Assembly (NCBI RefSeq): GCF_902779965.1
Contig: NZ_CACZDK010000002.1
Coordinates: 1 to 64,000, forward strand
Reading direction: 5' to 3'
Length of the DNA: 64,000 bases
Source: Fibrobacter succinogenes
GTDB taxonomy: Bacteria; Fibrobacterota; Fibrobacteria; Fibrobacterales; Fibrobacteraceae
The position numbers were made by a program, and so were the translations under genes. Below, piece after piece: positions 40,570 through 51,411 of this stretch. Below the pieces are notes generated by a model, which saw nothing but the letters and a program-made list of their open reading frames with translations, did not search any database and was not told the origin of the DNA. The first letter of the stretch is position 1. The number at the start of each line of letters is the position of its first letter.

Positions 40570-40790
40570 AAAAATCCTTGATAATATTTGTTTTAATAAT
40601 CGTAAAGAAATGTAACAAAAATATCATGTAAGTTGCTGTCCGTTGGGATTATATTGAAGGACTGTTGGGTGTATTTGCAATTTCTCACAATTGGGTACAG
40701 CTGTATCCAGTTTTTGCTTTAGATAAGGGGCGTTCCATTTTATTTCGCGATATATTATATAATGACAAGTAATGGAAAGGAGTGTGCCTT

Positions 40791-42653
40791 ATGCAGCTTA
40801 AATTTGGTTTGAAACAGTTTATCCCTCTCGCGGCGACTGTGCTTTCGCTCGCTACGGCTGCGACCGCCGCAACTGCTTACATCAACCAAGTCGGTTATCG
40901 TACTTCGGATCCGAAGGAATTTGCCTTGACCGAAGGAAATGGTGATATCGAAATTGTAGATGCTGCAGGCCAGACCGTTCTCAAGGTCTCTCCGAAAGCC
41001 GCTTCTTATTGGAATCCCGGTGCAGTGAATGTGCAACTGGTTGATATTTCTGAATTGAAGACTCCGGGAACCTACAGCATAAAGCAAGGCGGTCAAGTTC
41101 TGCGTTCGGACTTGAAAATTGCAGATAAAGTTTTTGAAGATGTCGCCAAGGCTTCGCTCAAGTGGTACTATTATCAGCGAGCATCCATGGCTTTGGAAGA
41201 AACGTATGCGGGGCAGTGGAAACGCGCTGCGGGCCACACGAATGCAACTGTGGAACTTCATAAATCTACAGGTGCTTCGGGAACAATCCAGTCGAGCAAA
41301 GGTTGGTATGATGCTGGCGACTATGGCCGCTACATTGTGAACTCGGGCATTACGACTTACACGCTCCTTTCGCTTTACGAACATTTCCCGGAATACTTCA
41401 ATACGTTCAAGTGGAATATCCCGGCTGAGGGAACGCTTCCGGATTTGCTTGCCGAAATCAAGTACAATCTTGATTGGATGTTGACGATGCAAGCGTCTGA
41501 TGGTATGGTCTACCACAAGCTTTCAACGCTTCAGTTTCCGGGCGATGTGATGCCTGTGAAAGATACGGAAAAACTTTATGTTATCGGTAAAGGAACTGCT
41601 GCGACGCTTGATTTTGCTGGCGTGATGGCTGCTGCATACCGTGTGTATAAGCCGTTTGATGCAACGTATGCAACTCAATGCCTTGAAGCGGCCAAGAAGG
41701 CTTATGCTTGGGCTCTCCAGAATCCGAAAGTTGCTTTCTACAATCCGATGGATGTGGCTACAGGTTCTTATAGCGATGGCGAATTCTCTGATGAATTTGC
41801 TTTTGCTGGCATGGAATTGTTTATCTCTACAGGGGATGCTTCGTACAAGCCGGCGATTGATGAAAATAAAATAAATATTGTCCCGGCATGGCCTGAAATG
41901 TACGGCCTTGCGCTTTATGGTGCTGCGACTCATGCGACTGAAGTGGGGGCCGATGCCGAAAAAGCTAAGTCGATGCTTTTGAGTTTTGCAAATGAATTTG
42001 TCCATGAATCATCGAAAGGTTTTGGCGTTGTAATCTCGAACGATGATTTTGTCTGGGGTTCCAATGCTGTTGCTGGCAATCAGGGCGTATTCCTCCTTTA
42101 TGCTTACTACATTACGGGCGAGCAGAAGTATTACGAAGCCGCCAAAAAGGTATTGGATTATTTGCTTGGAAAGAATCCTCTTGACATGTCTTTCTTAACT
42201 GGTTTTGGAACGAAGTCGCCGATGATGCCGCATCATCGCCCGAGTACAGCGGATAAAATTACACCCCCTATCCCGGGAATGCTCGTGGGTGGTCCACAGC
42301 CTGGTGGTGAAGATATTGGTTCGCAGTCTTGGGAATGCAAGGATTACAAGACGGGGGTTCCTGCGACTTCTTATATCGATAACCGTTGTAGCTATGCTAC
42401 AAATGAAGTGGCGATTAACTGGAATGCTCCATTTGCATATGTTGCTAGCGCGCTTGAAGCATTGAATGCTGGCTACGCCCCGTCTTTTGCTGTTCCGGGT
42501 GTTGCTAAGGGTGGCACTTCGGCAATCAGGCCTTCGATTGCGAGAAATCGCGTGTCGGTGGAAAAGGCTCCGCGTCTGCGCTTTGACGATCAGAAAGTAT
42601 TCATCGAAAAGAACGACAAGCGCTTTGACCTTAAAGGCCACCGCGTGAAATAA
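40791..42653 (+). CDS. Secreted GH9 endoglucanase (first of tandem pair)
   Basis: 620 residues from ATG 40791, chosen because AAAGGAG ends 8 nt upstream. Signal peptide about 1-26 (LAATVLSLATAATAA), an N-terminal Ig-like CelD_N domain (AYINQVGYRTSDPKEFAL), then a GH9 (alpha/alpha)6 barrel. Catalytic features: GWYDAGDYGRYIVNSG with the two aspartates, MPHHRPS with the active-site His, and the acid Glu in CSYATNEVAINWNAP. The C-terminal tail is FIEKNDKRFDLKGHRVK, nearly identical to that of the next gene, and may be a sorting or anchoring tag. Cleaves beta-1,4-glucan outside the cell. No serine linker, unlike its neighbour. Confidence 0.94.
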   Translation: MQLKFGLKQFIPLAATVLSLATAATAATAYINQVGYRTSDPKEFALTEGNGDIEIVDAAGQTVLKVSPKAASYWNPGAVNVQLVDISELKTPGTYSIKQGGQVLRSDLKIADKVFEDVAKASLKWYYYQRASMALEETYAGQWKRAAGHTNATVELHKSTGASGTIQSSKGWYDAGDYGRYIVNSGITTYTLLSLYEHFPEYFNTFKWNIPAEGTLPDLLAEIKYNLDWMLTMQASDGMVYHKLSTLQFPGDVMPVKDTEKLYVIGKGTAATLDFAGVMAAAYRVYKPFDATYATQCLEAAKKAYAWALQNPKVAFYNPMDVATGSYSDGEFSDEFAFAGMELFISTGDASYKPAIDENKINIVPAWPEMYGLALYGAATHATEVGADAEKAKSMLLSFANEFVHESSKGFGVVISNDDFVWGSNAVAGNQGVFLLYAYYITGEQKYYEAAKKVLDYLLGKNPLDMSFLTGFGTKSPMMPHHRPSTADKITPPIPGMLVGGPQPGGEDIGSQSWECKDYKTGVPATSYIDNRCSYATNEVAINWNAPFAYVASALEALNAGYAPSFAVPGVAKGGTSAIRPSIARNRVSVEKAPRLRFDDQKVFIEKNDKRFDLKGHRVK

Positions 42654-42748: not shown

Positions 42749-42875
42749 TGAAAAACGTTGCGTGAACACTTGCTACAGTATTTTTAGAATTGCATCGGCA
42801 AAGGGTAGTATATTTCCCGTAACGGCTCTATATTATATGGGGTAAATTCAAGCACTTTTTAAAGTGAGGATGTTT

Positions 42876-44888
42876 GTGAAAAATCATGCGATAAAGTCCG
42901 TTGCGCTTGCTGCGCTTTTTGCGGTTCCTTCCTTTGCTGCGACCGCTTACATCAACCAAATCGGTTATCGTCCGGGCGACTTCAAGGAATTAGCTCTTGT
43001 CGATGCAAATGGCAATGTGGATTTCGTGAATGCTGCCGGTCAGGTTGTGCTCTCTGTCACACCGAAGGCTGCCTCATATTGGGATGCGAGTGGTCAAAAT
43101 GTCCAGCTCGTCGATTTTTCGAAGCTTTCTGAAGCTGGCAAGTACAGCATCAAAGTGAATGGCAATGTGCTCCGTTCCGATCTCGTTGTGAAATCGCAAA
43201 CATACGAAGATATTGTCAAGGCTTCTATCAAGTGGTTCTATTACCAGCGTGCATCCATGGCCTTGGAATCGCAATACGCGGACAAGTGGGCTCGTGCGGC
43301 CGGTCACACAAATGCTACTGCAGAACTCCATAATTCTACAGGAGCTTCGGGTACAATCCAGTCGAGCAAGGGTTGGTACGATGCTGGTGATTATGGCCGT
43401 TACATTGTAAACTCGGGCATTACAACTTACACGCTTCTCTCTCTTTACGAACATTTCCCGCAGTATTTCAATACGCTCAAGTGGAACATCCCTGCCGAAG
43501 GTTCGCTCCCGGATTTGCTTGCCGAAATTAAGTACAATCTCGATTGGATGCTTACGATGCAAGCTAGCGATGGTGGCGTTTATCACAAATTAACATCTCT
43601 TGGATTCCCGGGCGATGTAATGCCTGCTCAGGATAACTCCAAGCTTTATGTTATCGGTAAAAGTACTGCGGGTACGTTTGACTTTGCGGCTGTGATGGCA
43701 ATGGCTTCTCGTATTTACAAGCCTTTTGATGCCTCTTATGCGTCTACATGCCTCAATGCAGCCAAGAAGGCTTTCGCTTGGGGTCAGCAGCATCCGAATC
43801 AGAATTATCTTGCTAATCCGTCGGATGTTTCGACTGGTGCTTATGAAAATGACAACCCGAATGATGAAAAAGTTCTCGCTGGTACGGAACTCTACATCAC
43901 GACTGGCGATGCTTCTTACAAACAGTCCGGTTCTTCGGAATACGTTTCTTACTGGGGCGATGTCATGGGCCTTGCCACTTACGAAAAGGCGACGCATCAG
44001 TCTCAGTTTGGTGGCGATGCTAATGAAGCTAAGCAGAAAATTTTGGGCACTGCCGATAACTTTGTCAATCGCGCCGAAAAAGGATTTGGCGTTGTGATGG
44101 CTAAGGATGACTTTGTTTGGGGCTCGAATTCCGCTGCTGCAAATCAGGGTGTTTGGCTGTTGCATGCTTACTACCTCACCGGCGAACAGAAGTATTACAA
44201 GGCTGCTGTTAAGGCTCTCGATTACTTGCTTGGCAAGAATCCGCTCGATATGTCTTTTGTAACGGGTTACGGCACGAAGTCTCCGAAAATGCCGCACCAC
44301 CGCCCGAGTACTTCAGATAACATAGAAGACCCGATTCCGGGTATGCTCGTGGGTGGCCCGCAGCCGGGCGGCGAAGATGTTGGCTCTGCCGCAGAATGGA
44401 AGTGCGCTGATTACCGTACAGGTCAGGCCGCAACTGCTTATACTGATCAGCGTTGCAGTTATGCCACGAATGAAGTTGCGATTAACTGGAATGCTCCGCT
44501 GGCTTATCTCGCTGGTGCTATCGAAGCTATCAACGCGGGTCATGCTCCTGAATTTGCGGCAGCAGGCGTTGCCAAGAATGATACTCCGGCTTCTAGCTCT
44601 TCTGTCGCGTCGAGTTCTTCTGCTGTGCCGTCGTCTTCGTCAAGCGTTCCGCAGAGTTCGTCTTCTGTAGTTCCTGCAAGTTCTTCTTCGTCGATTGCCG
44701 GGCCTGATATGTCGAGCTCGTCTGCAAATGTCGAATCTTCAAGTTCGCAGGGAACAAATGCAATTCATGCACCGATTGAATCTAGAATTGTACGCTCTCA
44801 GCAACCGCGCTTCCGCTTTGATGGTCACTCGCTCTTCATCGAAAAGAATGGCAAACGCTTTGACTTGAATGGCCACCGTGTTAAGTAA
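42876..44888 (+). CDS. Secreted GH9 endoglucanase with poly-Ser linker (second of tandem pair)
   Basis: 670 residues from GTG 42876, favoured because GAGG at 42866-42869 sits 6 nt upstream; ATG 42870 is directly adjacent to it and less likely. Signal peptide (HAIKSVALAALFAVPSFA), CelD_N domain (TAYINQIGYRPGDFKELAL) and GH9 barrel with GWYDAGDYGRY, MPHHRPS and ATNEVAINWNAP. It is colinear with the preceding gene. After the barrel comes a serine-rich linker of about 50 residues (blocks of SSSS separated by V, P or A), a Fibrobacter hallmark, then the tail FIEKNGKRFDLNGHRVK. Extracellular beta-1,4-glucanase. The duplication with linker gain is visible in the DNA. Confidence 0.94.
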   Translation: MKNHAIKSVALAALFAVPSFAATAYINQIGYRPGDFKELALVDANGNVDFVNAAGQVVLSVTPKAASYWDASGQNVQLVDFSKLSEAGKYSIKVNGNVLRSDLVVKSQTYEDIVKASIKWFYYQRASMALESQYADKWARAAGHTNATAELHNSTGASGTIQSSKGWYDAGDYGRYIVNSGITTYTLLSLYEHFPQYFNTLKWNIPAEGSLPDLLAEIKYNLDWMLTMQASDGGVYHKLTSLGFPGDVMPAQDNSKLYVIGKSTAGTFDFAAVMAMASRIYKPFDASYASTCLNAAKKAFAWGQQHPNQNYLANPSDVSTGAYENDNPNDEKVLAGTELYITTGDASYKQSGSSEYVSYWGDVMGLATYEKATHQSQFGGDANEAKQKILGTADNFVNRAEKGFGVVMAKDDFVWGSNSAAANQGVWLLHAYYLTGEQKYYKAAVKALDYLLGKNPLDMSFVTGYGTKSPKMPHHRPSTSDNIEDPIPGMLVGGPQPGGEDVGSAAEWKCADYRTGQAATAYTDQRCSYATNEVAINWNAPLAYLAGAIEAINAGHAPEFAAAGVAKNDTPASSSSVASSSSAVPSSSSSVPQSSSSVVPASSSSSIAGPDMSSSSANVESSSSQGTNAIHAPIESRIVRSQQPRFRFDGHSLFIEKNGKRFDLNGHRVK

Positions 44889-45006: not shown

Positions 45007-45666
45007 TTAATACTCGATATAATAATTCGGCTTTTTCGTAAAGTATCTACCTTTGGCATCTCGGTTATGCTTTGGCGCCTTTGAGGGAATGCTTGCTCTG
45101 TTGTTTTTGGGTGAAGATATTGGCTCTGAATTAAGGAAATATTCTCCATAAACGAGAGCTTTTTGTCGTGTGTTTTCGCCGGCGTAACATGTATCATTCA
45201 ATACGGCCGCGTAATTTTTAATGCTGATTTTGTCGCCTTTTTTGGCGTCCAGGTTTTTTGGGATAAAGACGCGCTGGGCTTTAAAGTTGTTGAGCATGGC
45301 GGAATCGTTACCCGTGGGAAGATTTACGGTGCGATTGCTGATGCCGATTGCTTTCATTTGCGTGGTCTTGTGGTCGACAACTCCTGTCACGGGAACAGAT
45401 GTGACTTGACCGTATAAATTAGGGATGCGAGTGTAATTCTCGAAAACGGAATCAATTGTACCGCTGACGTCAATCGAAAAACGCAACCGTTCGAATGTAG
45501 AATCTTTGACGAAATAAAAAACTTCAAAAAAGTTTTCTTCTGAGACACTTATAAAACCAGTGTGGTCGATGGTTTCGCAAATAATTATGTCTGAAACGTT
45601 GGGCTTGTTTTCTTGCGCTGAAACAAGAACTCCTAAAAGGAAAAGTAAAATGGATAAATGTTTCAT
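45007..45666 (-). CDS. Secreted protein of unknown family (paralogue of 50854-51411)
   Basis: 219 residues from ATG 45666, which starts a good signal peptide (MKHLSILLFLLGVLVSA); an in-frame extension of 49 codons upstream has no signal and is not credited. Shares with the 50854 gene: IIICETIDHTGF / IICYDISHSGF, FxxxFYFVKDSTF / FNDLFFNLKNNSIF, QRVFIPKNLDAKKGDKISIKNYAAVLND (in parts) and DTCYAGENTRQKALVYG / DTCYAGVKSRQKAFVFG. A C-terminal basic tail (RASIPSKAPKHNRDAKGRYF) is unique to this copy. No known family is recognised. Conserved Cys in both ends of the mature chain could form a disulfide (inference). Confidence 0.75.
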   Translation of the reverse strand: MKHLSILLFLLGVLVSAQENKPNVSDIIICETIDHTGFISVSEENFFEVFYFVKDSTFERLRFSIDVSGTIDSVFENYTRIPNLYGQVTSVPVTGVVDHKTTQMKAIGISNRTVNLPTGNDSAMLNNFKAQRVFIPKNLDAKKGDKISIKNYAAVLNDTCYAGENTRQKALVYGEYFLNSEPISSPKNNRASIPSKAPKHNRDAKGRYFTKKPNYYIEY

Positions 45667-45848: not shown

Positions 45849-46661
45849 TTATTTCAGAGTTACGACTGTTCCGCTTGTGCTGCTATTGTGGTCAATAGAC
45901 ACTGTGTAGCTTCCGTTAGGAACTTTTTCGCCGTTCCATGAAATGGTGTTGTAGCCCGCCTTTGCGTCTTTTAAGCTGAATTGGGCGATTTGCTTGCCGT
46001 CAACGTTGGTGATGGTGACTGTTGTCTTGCCGGCTTCCTTCAAATCGAACGCAATGCTTTTGCGGTCGAAGCTCTTTAATGCAGCAATGTTATTTGAAAT
46101 TGGTTTCGCGGCGGTTCTTTTTACCGGAGTTGCTTTCGATTTTTCTGCGTAAATGCCGTCCAAGTTGGCAGCAGATGTTGCTTCCTTATCTTGGAGTACG
46201 GCGCCTTTTTGAAGAACGGCTAGAAGTTTCTTATCGCCTTCAGTAGCTGTTGCGTATGTTTCAATTTCGCTAGAATTGAGCTCTTTCTTGTCGCCGTACC
46301 AGTTTTCGATATCCTTCTGGTCGAGAGATTTGACCGTGATTTGAACGCGAGAAAGAATGGTCGAGTATGTTTCTCCGTTGCTCACGTATGTCACTTCTAT
46401 GGGCTTGTTTTTGGGACCGCGAAGCATTTGCTTTGTGTCTTCAACGGATTTCCCCTTAAGCGAAATGCCGTCAACCGCAATAATCTTGTCGCTGATTTGA
46501 AGCTTGCTATCGGCAGCGGGGGTGTTGGGGATGATGTCAAGAATCTTGACACCATCGTTTTCTTGCTGGAAAGAAATACCGATTCCCCCGAAGCTTTCGT
46601 TTGCCATTGCAGCGCATGCTGAAATGATTGTGGTGAAAACGACTTTATTGAGTTTATTCAT
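45849..46661 (-). CDS. Secreted PDZ-domain protein with C-terminal sorting-like Ig domain
   Basis: 270 residues. Signal peptide MNKLNKVVFTTIISACAAMA. PDZ domain about 25-105: GGIGISFQQENDGVKILDIIPNTPAADSKLQISDKIIAVDG (in parts) and KGKSVEDTKQMLRGP, the layout of C-terminal-processing-peptidase PDZ domains but with no protease domain. A Thr/Ala/Lys-rich middle follows. The last 70 residues (AFDLKEAGKTTVTITNVDGK ... NTISWNGEKVPNGSYTVSI ... GTVVTLK) have the form of FlgD-like Ig or type A type-IX-secretion sorting domains. Likely a cell-surface or secreted scaffold. Whether a type IX system exports it cannot be judged from this window. Confidence 0.82.
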   Translation of the reverse strand: MNKLNKVVFTTIISACAAMANESFGGIGISFQQENDGVKILDIIPNTPAADSKLQISDKIIAVDGISLKGKSVEDTKQMLRGPKNKPIEVTYVSNGETYSTILSRVQITVKSLDQKDIENWYGDKKELNSSEIETYATATEGDKKLLAVLQKGAVLQDKEATSAANLDGIYAEKSKATPVKRTAAKPISNNIAALKSFDRKSIAFDLKEAGKTTVTITNVDGKQIAQFSLKDAKAGYNTISWNGEKVPNGSYTVSIDHNSSTSGTVVTLK

Positions 46662-46987: not shown

Positions 46988-49900
46988 ATGAAAAAAATAA
47001 CCTGCGTGGTTGCTTTTTCTGCTGCGTTTTTGTTTGCAGGGAAGAGCCCGTTTAGTATGGTTCGTACGGTGGCATGGGATGCAAATGGCCAACCGTCTGA
47101 AGAAGCTGTTGACTTGACAGTTTGTCTTGAACAAACTCCTGTTCAGGGAAGCTCTAGCCCGGCTAAATCTAGAGAACGCTATGAAAATATTATCAAGTAT
47201 TGGGCTGACGGCTTGTATGAAATGTCCAATGGCGGTAACTATTTGGGCAATATCAGAATCTTTACGGGAACCACGAATCCTAAGGGCTGTGACGTTCAGT
47301 GGCGTATTTTGAACGAATGGCCTCGCGCTAGAGTTGCCGGGTTTAACTCTCCGTCTGGAAACTTGATTGTATCGGATGCATGGGTTTCGGGTGACCCGAC
47401 TTATGAATTCCGTACAAATGATGCTATGCAGCAGTTCCACTTTGGTATGACGCTTACTCATGAATCGATGCATTATCTATATGGGCTGAGCGACGAATAT
47501 GGGACTGTGTCTTTTATTCCGGATCCATCGGACTTCTATAATAACGTATCCGTTTCTGCAGATCCGTCAACGGATAGAATCCGAATTAATGTATTCTCGG
47601 ATGGATCTTATGAATCAAGCTCGTTGGACGCACTCCATAACGGACAGCAAATCTATTTTGTCCCGAATGGTGGCTCGATTCCGTCCGGAACATGGACGGC
47701 TCCGACAAGTTCTGTATGGCTTGCTAATGGCTATATGACCATTGATGAACTTGAATGGGCGCAGGATGGCTCTCCTTCTGTATCGTTCACCTTGAAAAAT
47801 CCTAGTGGAAACAAGGTGAATATTACAAGTGCCGGTAGCGGAAATTGGGGAGTTTCTTTGCCTAGAGCTGCTGGTGCTACGGCACATACGATTCAAAATA
47901 CGCAATGGCCTTTGGGCTATTTCAAGTTTGGTGCATGCGGAAGTGGCGCTGCAATTCCGTGGCAGTGGGCCAACTTGAGCACTAAATTTAATTTCAATTC
48001 TAATTCGATGCAGGGTGTAACGTATAAAAATGCAAATAGCAAATCGTTCTCTGGATGGGAAACGGTTGTGTCTAATCCTGTCAACGATGTGATTTACAAG
48101 TCTTGGGGCGGATGGAACCGTTTCTGGTTCAAGTCTCTTATCAATAGAGCTCCGAAGGCTAATGACCGTTACGTGACCAAATCGCACTATCTCAATTATA
48201 ATGATAATACGGGAACATGGGATGCAAGCCATGCTACATGGTACGAAGCTGGTTATTGCAATACAAAAAATGTTGAATTGCCTTATATGAAGGTTGAACT
48301 TGCCGGTAAAACGGAAGCTCAATATATTAAGGAAACTCGTAAGCATTTGAATATCATGTGGATGGATGGCGTGAAGACCGAAATTATCGTGGTCTTGGAT
48401 CATTCAGGAAGTATGAATTCGAATAAGAAAATGGAACAGGCTCAACTTGCTTCTAAGTATGTAGCGACCGGATTCTTGGGATCTGGATCTGGCTATAGTG
48501 CAAGTAACGTAAGTGTTGGCGTTTTTGCGTTTAACCAAAATGTTTCTGAAGTGTATCACCTTAAGAGTAATCCGAATAAGAATGACATTTACAGTGCTAT
48601 CACGGGTGTGTCTGCTGGCGGTACTACTGCTATGTTCGATGCTATTGGTACGGCTTTGAACGCCTTTACAAGCAATCAGTCTAGCTTGAAGATGTTGTAT
48701 GTTATTTCTGATGGCTTGGATAATGCAAGCTCGAAGATGAATAGTCAGAAAGTTATTGAATTGTCCAAGTCAAAGAATGTGGCGATACATACATTCGCGT
48801 ATGGATCCGATGCCGATAAAAATGTGTTGGCTCTTATGGCCGCTGAAACAGGTGGCACCTTCTACGACCAGCAAGCAAATCTGGTGTTGAATGCTAATGC
48901 AGCAACGGCTTCTGTGCTTGCTAACTCCGTGGGTGTTGAACAGATTGCAGCTGCTGTCTTGAGTAACTCTGCAACGTCTTCAAATATTTATGTTCCGAGA
49001 AAAGTGGGCAGAGTGCGTATTTACGGTTCCTATACGGGCTCCGTGCAATCGAACCCGATTGCCGTGAAGTCTAGCAATGGTACGAACCTTACGTTTAGCA
49101 AGGAAACATTTACTTTGAATAATGTGAATTACTTTATTGCAGAAGTGGATTCGACTACCTTGCAACAGAATTCTACGTCGATGATTAAAATCAAAAATAA
49201 TATGTCGTCGCAGAACGTTGACTTTAGAATGTTGGCATTTGAAAAACGCGCTACTTATGGCATGAGCATTGGCATGAAGCCGGAAGCTCCTTACAAGTGG
49301 CCGGAACAGGCTAGCTTTACGGCATCGGTTGCTGGAAAGGATGGTATCCTTGCTGGTGTTACTGCCACGGGTAAGTTGACCGCTCCTAATGGCACTACTT
49401 CGCAGTTTAATCTTTATGACGATGGTACGCATGGCGATGCCCTGGCTGGTGACGGTGTTTACTTTGGCTATTTGCCGAATATCATGTCTAATGGTTCATA
49501 CCAGTGGGAAGTCTCCATTTCGAATAAGCAGAAAAAAGCTTACACGGTGAAGAGGGGTACTAGTCTTCCGGATTCCATCGCCTTCGTGAAGAAGACGGAT
49601 ACGAACCCGTTTGAAGTGATTCGCAATGGTCAGTTTGTTGTGAGCGATTGCTGCACGGAAAATGACGTAACTACGATTCAACCGGAAGTTTCTGTTTCTG
49701 GCTTCTTGCAGCAGGGTACTGATGAAGATAAGTTTAAGATTGTGGGCACCAAGTCTTCTAAGAGCTATTCTTTGGTCTTGCAATCGGCAAATCTTTCTTC
49801 GATTGAAAAGGTTGAAGTATTTGATCAGCGTGATATGAATACACCGTTGTATTCTGCAAATGTTATTGCAAATACAAAAGATAGGAATATATTCTCTTTG

Positions 49901-50857
49901 AGCTCTACGTTGGCTGCTCCTGGAAATATTATTGTTGTCAGTGGAACGCATTCTGCCGGCGCAAGCTATAACTTGCTTTTGCTTGAAGCTGAAGGTGCTT
50001 CGTTTGAAATTGGCCGTTTCGAAAATATTGCCGATTGGCATTCTGACAACTCTACTATCGCACTTGATGGAAATATTAAGAGCGAAGGCTCGTATAGCCT
50101 CTCGACAGTTTCTGGATGGAAGATTATCGAAAGCCGTAGCATTTCGACCACTGACTTAAAGGTTATCGGTGACAAGATGAGCTTGAACCTCTATGTTCCT
50201 GCTTCTTCTCAAAACCAGTATTGGTTGGGCACGGTTGAATTGTGGGTCAATGTTCCGTCTGCAAACAAGAGAATTCAGTTAGGCTCGAATGCCACGATTC
50301 AGTCCTCGTTTAACGCATGGACGACGTATGAGTTTACAGTTCCGCAGCAGGCTTTGGCTTTGCTCTCTGAACTGCATGCTGATGTTCGTTTCCAGATTGT
50401 GCTGAACTCCGCAGATTCCATTTGGGTCGATGATTTGCACTTCTCGGGTAACTTGATTGAAAACGATGTGGAAACAATTGATTTGCAGTGCCCAGGACAG
50501 CCGGGTTGCTCTTCTTCGAATCCGATTCGTTTGTCTGTCGATGGCTCCGTTGTTGTCTCTGCGACGGGTACCGTGTGGATTGAAGTTGTCGATTTCCCGC
50601 AGAATTGGACTCCGGCATCTTTGAAGATCAGCCTCTATGCTTTGGATGGCGCTCCGCTGTCGGGCAAGCTCGTGTATTCCAACACGACTTATCAGTTGAC
50701 GGATTGGGATTTCTCGAAAACGTTTAATTACGCATCGGGGAGCCGCTATGTGTTCAAGTTGACGAACCTTGAAGGACGCCCGTTCCGCATGAATGCTTGG
50801 GTGTCCGGACAGTCGATGAACTTGGCATTTAACGGTAACTATGACGTTGTGTTTTAA
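46988..50857 (+). CDS. Secreted CLCA-like metalloprotease with vWA domain
   Basis: 1289 residues. Signal peptide MKKITCVVAFSAAFLFAG. A zincin-type domain carries LTHESMHYLYGLSDEY: H158-E159-x2-H162-x3-G166-x2-D169-E170, the HExxHxxxGxxDE pattern of CLCA (calcium-activated chloride channel regulator) proteins. A vWA domain starts near 465 with the MIDAS motif VVLDHSGSM, Thr in AGGTTAMFDA and Asp in VISDGLDN. Near 810, LYDDGTHGDALAGDGVYFGYL matches the post-vWA segment of CLCA proteins. A jelly-roll, carbohydrate-binding-like domain spans about 1040-1190. Animal CLCAs are self-cleaving secreted proteases; here a role in matrix or surface processing is inferred. Confidence 0.88.
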   Translation: MKKITCVVAFSAAFLFAGKSPFSMVRTVAWDANGQPSEEAVDLTVCLEQTPVQGSSSPAKSRERYENIIKYWADGLYEMSNGGNYLGNIRIFTGTTNPKGCDVQWRILNEWPRARVAGFNSPSGNLIVSDAWVSGDPTYEFRTNDAMQQFHFGMTLTHESMHYLYGLSDEYGTVSFIPDPSDFYNNVSVSADPSTDRIRINVFSDGSYESSSLDALHNGQQIYFVPNGGSIPSGTWTAPTSSVWLANGYMTIDELEWAQDGSPSVSFTLKNPSGNKVNITSAGSGNWGVSLPRAAGATAHTIQNTQWPLGYFKFGACGSGAAIPWQWANLSTKFNFNSNSMQGVTYKNANSKSFSGWETVVSNPVNDVIYKSWGGWNRFWFKSLINRAPKANDRYVTKSHYLNYNDNTGTWDASHATWYEAGYCNTKNVELPYMKVELAGKTEAQYIKETRKHLNIMWMDGVKTEIIVVLDHSGSMNSNKKMEQAQLASKYVATGFLGSGSGYSASNVSVGVFAFNQNVSEVYHLKSNPNKNDIYSAITGVSAGGTTAMFDAIGTALNAFTSNQSSLKMLYVISDGLDNASSKMNSQKVIELSKSKNVAIHTFAYGSDADKNVLALMAAETGGTFYDQQANLVLNANAATASVLANSVGVEQIAAAVLSNSATSSNIYVPRKVGRVRIYGSYTGSVQSNPIAVKSSNGTNLTFSKETFTLNNVNYFIAEVDSTTLQQNSTSMIKIKNNMSSQNVDFRMLAFEKRATYGMSIGMKPEAPYKWPEQASFTASVAGKDGILAGVTATGKLTAPNGTTSQFNLYDDGTHGDALAGDGVYFGYLPNIMSNGSYQWEVSISNKQKKAYTVKRGTSLPDSIAFVKKTDTNPFEVIRNGQFVVSDCCTENDVTTIQPEVSVSGFLQQGTDEDKFKIVGTKSSKSYSLVLQSANLSSIEKVEVFDQRDMNTPLYSANVIANTKDRNIFSLSSTLAAPGNIIVVSGTHSAGASYNLLLLEAEGASFEIGRFENIADWHSDNSTIALDGNIKSEGSYSLSTVSGWKIIESRSISTTDLKVIGDKMSLNLYVPASSQNQYWLGTVELWVNVPSANKRIQLGSNATIQSSFNAWTTYEFTVPQQALALLSELHADVRFQIVLNSADSIWVDDLHFSGNLIENDVETIDLQCPGQPGCSSSNPIRLSVDGSVVVSATGTVWIEVVDFPQNWTPASLKISLYALDGAPLSGKLVYSNTTYQLTDWDFSKTFNYASGSRYVFKLTNLEGRPFRMNAWVSGQSMNLAFNGNYDVVF

Positions 50858-51411
50858 TCCTTCTTGAATTTGCCAAATACAAAAGCCTTTTGACGACTTT
50901 TTACCCCTGCATAGCAGGTGTCGTTCAAAAAGGCTGAGTAGTTGGTGATGGAAATATGATCCCCGGCGTTTACGTTCATTGTTTGGGGAATGTAAATCCG
51001 CTGGGGATCAAACTCCTTTAGCATTAGCGAATCGGCTTCATCTGAATTGGAAACTTTGTAGTCTTTTACTGAAATAACTTTCATTCGATTGATTGTATTT
51101 TTGGAAGACTCGGTGTTGGTAATTCCAATGATGGGGAGGCCGATTTTTTTTCCGTTGATATCTTGTAATGTTGCGTTGTTATCGACTGTACTTATAATTC
51201 CGTCAATAGAAATGGAATGTGGAACGTTAAAAATAGAGTTGTTCTTTAAATTGAAAAACAAGTCGTTAAAAGTTTTTTCGTTGATTTCGACAAATCCAGA
51301 ATGGCTTATGTCGTAACAGATGATTGTATCTACGGGTTTGAGTTCTTGTTGTGAAAATGCAGAGATTCCAAAGATTAGCACGCAACAGAGTGTGTTTGCA
51401 AAGTATTTCAT
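50854..51411 (-). CDS. Secreted protein of unknown family (paralogue of 45007-45666)
   Basis: 185 residues. Signal peptide MKYFANTLCCVLIFGISAFS. The mature protein aligns end to end with the 45007 gene product: TIICYDISHSGFVEI, FFNLKNNSIFNVPHSISIDGII (in parts), QRIYIPQTMNVNAGDHISITNYSAFLNDTCYAG (in parts), RQKAFVFGKF. It ends where the other has an extra basic tail. The gene is convergent with the CLCA-like gene and overlaps it by 4 nt (the stop codons interlock). Function unknown; two copies flanking the CLCA-like and PDZ genes suggest a shared surface role (inference). Confidence 0.75.
   Translation of the reverse strand: MKYFANTLCCVLIFGISAFSQQELKPVDTIICYDISHSGFVEINEKTFNDLFFNLKNNSIFNVPHSISIDGIISTVDNNATLQDINGKKIGLPIIGITNTESSKNTINRMKVISVKDYKVSNSDEADSLMLKEFDPQRIYIPQTMNVNAGDHISITNYSAFLNDTCYAGVKSRQKAFVFGKFKKD

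Follow-up and report, generated by a model that had tools for sequence, protein, structure and literature searches.

In a 64,000-nucleotide window of Fibrobacter succinogenes DNA (the whole stretch analyzed: NCBI RefSeq assembly GCF_902779965.1, contig NZ_CACZDK010000002.1, positions 1 to 64,000 of the forward strand), one intact open reading frame at 46988..50857 (+) encodes a CLCA-like secreted metalloprotease of 1289 amino acids plus stop, and this gene is accompanied on either side by genes for small secreted proteins of a single family. We hold with moderate confidence that the two form a system of a secreted metalloprotease and a co-encoded partner, most likely a specific inhibitor, a reading that draws on sequence comparison; the protease part of this proposal is well supported, and we infer the inhibitor role. 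The flanking small secreted proteins, overlooked in a first-pass annotation of this DNA, are the strongest functional clue.

Partner genes accompany the protease across genomes

Two members of the partner family were identified in the window by homology, both on the reverse strand: partner 1 (219 aa, 45010..45666, with its ATG at 45666 and its stop at 45007-45009) and partner 2 (185 aa, 50854..51411 including the stop, 50857-51411 without it). They are paralogues with 36% identity lying either side of the protease gene, and partner 2 is convergent with that gene and overlaps its stop. One cysteine is invariant in all 36 members of the family (alignment A4), with a second cysteine at either of two downstream positions, and most members end in a conserved basic tail, HNRDAxGR..., which is missing from window partner 2. 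Comparison of the 36 members with Pfam and NCBIfam returned scattered chance-level matches, none of them common to more than two members. The tail, HNRDAxGR...IxY, is near-identical between same-locus paralogues whose bodies differ strongly (window 45010-45666; L106:6368-8523), a pattern suggestive of recombination or of a role in sorting.

Every one of the 15 protease loci found in Fibrobacteraceae (12 plus three decayed) carries one to three adjacent partner copies, located at distances of up to about 1.5 kb from the protease or from each other and oriented divergently from the protease start (often at about 60-250 bp) and/or convergently at its end; protease and partner meet tail to tail in the window, G151, and G145. 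This linkage covers the full-length protease type in Fibrobacter plus the remnant in G159. The 12 loci, some of them cut by contig ends, are those of G000, G151 (counted as one with L029), G145, G034, G026, G143, G119, G031, G138 (twice), G121, and G132, and no full-type protease without a partner was seen in Fibrobacter. At the three decayed loci (G004, G007, G159) the partner is intact. In G001 and G114, what remains is an intact partner 1, followed by 33 bp of the PDZ gene, the 5' portion of partner 2, and RseP; the protease was thus lost by deletion, and partner 1 survived.

The linked pair occurs in at least five genomic settings. In one it is flanked by GH9 genes and an RseP-like gene, in another by ribosomal protein genes and a CorC-type gene, in a third by a TraB-like gene and a cytidylate kinase gene, and there are two more; the neighbor gene names are our own reading of the sequences. 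Protease distances track those of the upstream partners closely (Mantel r 0.94, p 0.0002). The pairs of G121 and G138:C11 lie in different settings, yet both of their genes are mutually closer than either is to the G138:C8 pair, which has the same setting as G121. Three tandem partner genes with in-frame stops mid-region were also observed at a ribosomal-protein locus lacking a protease (L118:4726-6710, G151 contig 28).

The protease itself is patchily distributed, as its catalytic half (profile A6) was detected in 16 of 168 Fibrobacterota genomes. The copy in F. succinogenes RUG12208 (L029, the same as G151) is 92% identical to that of the window. Our whole-protein search scored three candidates per genome, while the catalytic-part search scored all and returned the same intact loci. 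Searching genome contigs yielded only one relative and searching viral contigs yielded none; two weak matches on Rhizobium plasmids were judged to be due to chance.

Proposed function of the partners

A protease that is never found alone, a partner that often is, and the location of the partner genes together make up the pattern predicted for an inhibitor or immunity protein. In the model that we favor, for which we also infer proteolytic activity, binding, inhibition, location, and substrates, the protease and its neighboring small secreted protein or proteins would act as a unit, with the partner binding and restraining the protease during export and protecting the producer and neighboring cells, in the way that AprI acts on AprA and BamI on Mep72. 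Both of these pairs are precedents for an inhibitor encoded by a gene adjacent to that of its protease (PMC4334185). Like the Fibrobacter protein, Mep72 of Pseudomonas aeruginosa is a secreted metalloprotease with extra domains, in this case carbohydrate-binding, and an adjoining small-protein gene, the product of which, BamI, relieves its toxicity (PMC4334185). By description, the two systems differ in that Mep72 has a metzincin domain with no VWA described, and in that a partly unfolded state is predicted for BamI (PMC4334185). The likeness to AprA-AprI of Pseudomonas is one of role, in that a secreted zinc protease is paired with a small protein, in Pseudomonas its cognate inhibitor. As for fold, AprI forms a small beta-barrel of a different type, whereas the Fibrobacter partner models as OB-like, again as compared by description.

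The structural model of partner 1 is beta-rich (predicted local distance difference test score, pLDDT, of 82), and its nearest solved structures are mostly of OB type. The invariant cysteine near the N-terminus and this OB-like core, itself a weak match, are shared with TIMP/NTR-type OB-fold inhibitors, and the weak fold matches include agrin NtA (Z 4.1), which we take to be TIMP-like. Unlike in TIMP, where the cysteine is at mature position 1, the invariant partner cysteine lies about 3 to 17 residues past the apparent signal cleavage site, as judged by eye. We therefore rejected a TIMP-like zinc-chelating N-terminus for the partner, and consider a TIMP mechanism unlikely.

Several observations weigh against an inhibitor role. 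The OB match is weak (VIA Z of at most 4.3, Foldseek E of at least 0.27), many OB proteins score at Z about 4, and OB folds serve many functions. About 27 partner loci in the sequence examined, some at contig ends, have no protease, including, for four of the settings, the orthologous position; partners so common without a protease may serve an independent function. A search for the partner family in the genomes of G058, G064, and G095, each of which has a related protease, found no member; G095 belongs to the same family but another genus, and its protease relative, L036, is distant. Finally, both the gene linkage and the distance correlation arise in part from the common descent of neighboring genes. 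An extended form of the inhibitor proposal, which we regard as tentative, is that this new small OB-like family consists of dedicated inhibitor or immunity proteins for Fibrobacter CLCA-like proteases, with orphan members protecting cells that have lost the protease, and that the system serves competition or surface remodeling on plant fiber.

Two other accounts of the partners must be weighed against inhibition. The partner could be a substrate or processed cargo of the protease that is cut or matured at the cell surface, the basic tail HNRDAxGR... possibly serving attachment or release. Such an arrangement would fit a C-terminal tail that is nearly invariant on a body that varies even between same-locus paralogues, and the repeated partner copies near one protease could be a set of substrates. 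Yet partners remain after the protease has been deleted, window partner 2 has no tail, and a substrate has no need to adjoin its protease at every location, leaving this account rather unlikely to our minds. We are similarly doubtful that the partners are independent, variable surface proteins with which the protease is co-located by chance or shared mobility and with which it has no direct interaction. The many protease-free partner loci favor that idea; the presence of a partner at every Fibrobacteraceae locus of the full-length protease type, the co-occurrence of the pair in five settings, and their parallel divergence speak against it.

Domain layout and active site of the protease

Returning to the protease, whose features all lie on the forward strand, the ATG of its open reading frame is preceded by GGAGG, a ribosome-binding site. 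By sequence reading, residues 1-17 form a signal peptide (47038 being its last nucleotide, 46988..47038; MKKITCVVAFSAAFLFA followed by G), and relatives in the family alignment likewise have hydrophobic N-terminal leaders. The zincin-like catalytic N-terminal half (47039..47512), recognized from alignment A6 and the model topology, contains the active-site motif HESMHYLYGLSDEY at residues 158-171 (47459..47500), identified by motif check and family alignments. Alignment and model secondary structure place a beta-rich insert within the catalytic region after the active site (47513..47880), which is found in the full Fibrobacter form and missing from the shorter G058 relatives. Between the insert and the VWA domain, the family alignment delimits a segment (47882..48382) with a conserved WxNxST...W, in which the window protein has TIQ at the family SIM motif.

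The VWA domain (48383..48868) is supported by Pfam (PF00092, residues 466-627, E 8e-17), fold search, and motif check, and its metal ion-dependent adhesion site (MIDAS) is complete, with D471-x-S473-x-S475 (DHSGS, 471-475), T546/T547, and D575. The Pfam scan of the window protein found no domains other than VWA-type ones. Next comes a choice_anch_X or CLCA-type DDGTHGDALAGDG segment at residues 808-843 (49409..49516), seen both by NCBIfam and by hhalign against CLCA1; DDGTHGDALAGDG itself occupies residues 811-823, where NF041940 (choice_anch_X) matches with E 4e-11. Motif, VWA domain with full MIDAS, and CLCA-type segment had all been proposed in the first-pass annotation and are borne out here in an intact reading frame. 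Behind them, the model and a Fibrobacterota profile search define a beta-sandwich, jelly-roll-like domain at residues about 1009-1160 (50012..50467), which is beta-rich in the model and recurs in many other Fibrobacterota proteins, and a terminal region at residues about 1165-1289 (50480..50854) is conserved among full-length relatives. The extra C-terminal domain predicted earlier is thus real, while the carbohydrate binding suggested for it found no backing: its profile (A5) had no match in PDB, and the C-terminal part had none in Pfam or NCBIfam.

The AlphaFold model covers residues 18-1165 with a mean pLDDT of 73 and a predicted template modeling score of 0.47. HESMH falls within a predicted helix at model positions 129-148 (pLDDT about 87) that follows a zincin-like order of strands and helices; this is the helix whose absence had been set beforehand as grounds for abandoning the CLCA-like protease proposal. 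No solved zincin was listed in a fold search with the protease model, as VWA matches fill that list, an absence that leaves room for a zincin fold, and a PDB search with the catalytic profile gave chance matches only.

The active-site motif is kept in all intact Fibrobacter copies, with D/E variation in its DEY part; HExxHx6DEY has a chance expectation of about 6e-7 in a protein of the same composition. The ratio of nonsynonymous to synonymous substitution rates (dN/dS) between the window and L029 is 0.03 for residues 1-175 and 0.11 for the whole protease gene. Across genes, dN/dS is 0.12-0.24 for partners, 0.11-0.15 for the protease, and 0.03-0.08 for flanking genes, meaning that protease and partner genes evolve faster than their neighbors, yet under purifying selection. 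Judging from these features, the protein is predicted to be exported and is probably an active zinc metalloprotease, which its VWA and extra beta domains probably fix to a surface or substrate.

Two paralogues in G064 (L139:2119-5148 and L141:1601-4678) have their zinc site replaced by REFARYTYAINYQY and REFARYTYAVNYQY, respectively, and are presumably inactive, a putative pseudo-protease pair, while a third relative in the same genome (L140) has an intact HExxH, HEFAHYAYGLYDQH.

Relationship to the CLCA and M64 families

The published consensus is HExxHxxxGxxDEY for CLCA and HExxHxxxxLxDEY for peptidase M64 (Lenart et al. 2013, PMC3650047), and HESMHYLYGLSDEY satisfies both alike. That paper makes no mention of the word Fibrobacter (PMC3650047). 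With the CLCA family (animal CLCA1-4 and bacterial CLCA_N proteins; PF08434/TIGR00868), the window protein shares the motif, VWA-MIDAS, the choice_anch_X/DDG segment, and their order, as well as a patchy bacterial distribution. Aligned by hhalign, the protease family and human CLCA1 match over 353 columns from the VWA domain through the DDG segment with probability 98.8, and human CLCA1 also has choice_anch_X at the equivalent place behind its VWA domain; the CLCA1 query was accepted after a full-length TIGR00868 match of 1537 bits. TIGR00868, the CLCA model, matches residues 466-852 of the window protein at 50 bits, compared with a full-CLCA cut-off of 901 bits.

The catalytic domain is another matter. 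PF08434 (CLCA_N) has no match in the window protein and none above cut-off among the 168 Fibrobacterota genomes, the best relative reaching 19.4 of the required 25.6 bits, and a direct CLCA_N assignment was therefore rejected. Assignment of the catalytic part to CLCA_N from its hhalign probability of 82.7 was likewise rejected, because in a control the 14-residue motif alone accounted for the match: the catalytic part is collinear with CLCA1 at a score of 45.7, which was equaled when all but the 14-mer was scrambled, and with the 14-mer masked the score fell to 15.1, inside the scrambled range. The M64 model, PF09471, also has no match in the window protein, and its best relative, from G058, scores 16.6 bits against a cut-off of 26. 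The window protein fits HExxHxxxxLxDEY but falls below this cut-off, and in it the catalytic part is followed by VWA, X, and extra beta domains.

Other features set the protein apart from CLCA as well. The cysteine-rich region expected between protease and VWA is lacking, with only Cys317 and Cys424 within residues 172-465, and the beta insert takes its place; two extra C-terminal beta domains and the linked small secreted partners are further differences. The C-terminal fibronectin III domain of CLCA may have a counterpart in the window protein, whose C-terminal part is beta-rich in the model, although Pfam and NCBIfam match nothing there. Given the failure of PF08434, a similarity limited to the 14-mer, and the fit to M64, we conclude that the protein has a CLCA-like layout and that its CLCA_N membership is unproven; the CLCA likeness put forward in the first-pass annotation is therefore supported for the layout but not for family membership. 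With such a layout, the protein may work like CLCA.

These results also bear on the idea of a genuine CLCA homologue in bacteria, acquired by transfer or of ancient shared origin, which would remodel matrix and cut itself beyond the DDG domain, its gene neighbors being irrelevant. The exact CLCA motif and the collinear zincin-VWA-X layout fit such a protein. So may a low-confidence linker behind the X domain (model 832-856, residues 849-873), the CLCA1 cut site following its X domain. The substituted sites of the G064 paralogues (REFAR...) resemble the H-to-R type of substitution described for zincin families including CLCA (Lenart et al. 2013, PMC3650047). Nevertheless, PF08434 failed, the catalytic similarity is that of the active-site motif only, and cysteines are few beyond the catalytic half, and we think this reading improbable. 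Nothing in the gene neighborhood points to mucus or host matrix. Least probable of all is a non-proteolytic adhesin that binds fiber or cells through its VWA and C-terminal beta domains and carries a vestigial zincin, since, for all that these domains make up most of the protein length and that the window clade has TIQ where relatives have SIM, strong purifying selection maintains the active-site residues in every intact Fibrobacter copy.

Other neighboring genes

A secreted PDZ-like protein is encoded at 45849..46661 (−), as assigned from its open reading frame and a comparison of settings; its gene separates partner 1 from the protease in G145, G151, and the window, and was seen beside the protease in that setting only. 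Adjacent GH9-like cellulase paralogues at 40782-42653 and 42864-44888 of the window share a terminal basic tail, IEKNxKRFDLxGHRVK, which is presumably the Fibrobacter basic terminal domain.

Conclusions

CLCA-like proteases were described in bacteria more than a decade ago, and no gene neighborhood conserved beyond the species level was reported for them (PMC3650047); here, every locus found in one clade has a partner gene. With this partner family, what had been an orphan protease of CLCA-like type in bacteria becomes a two-gene system open to testing. Should the partner prove to be an inhibitor, it would represent a new inhibitor family and could help to reveal what CLCA-type proteases do in bacteria, with a bearing on how Fibrobacter, a major rumen fiber degrader, manages its surface.

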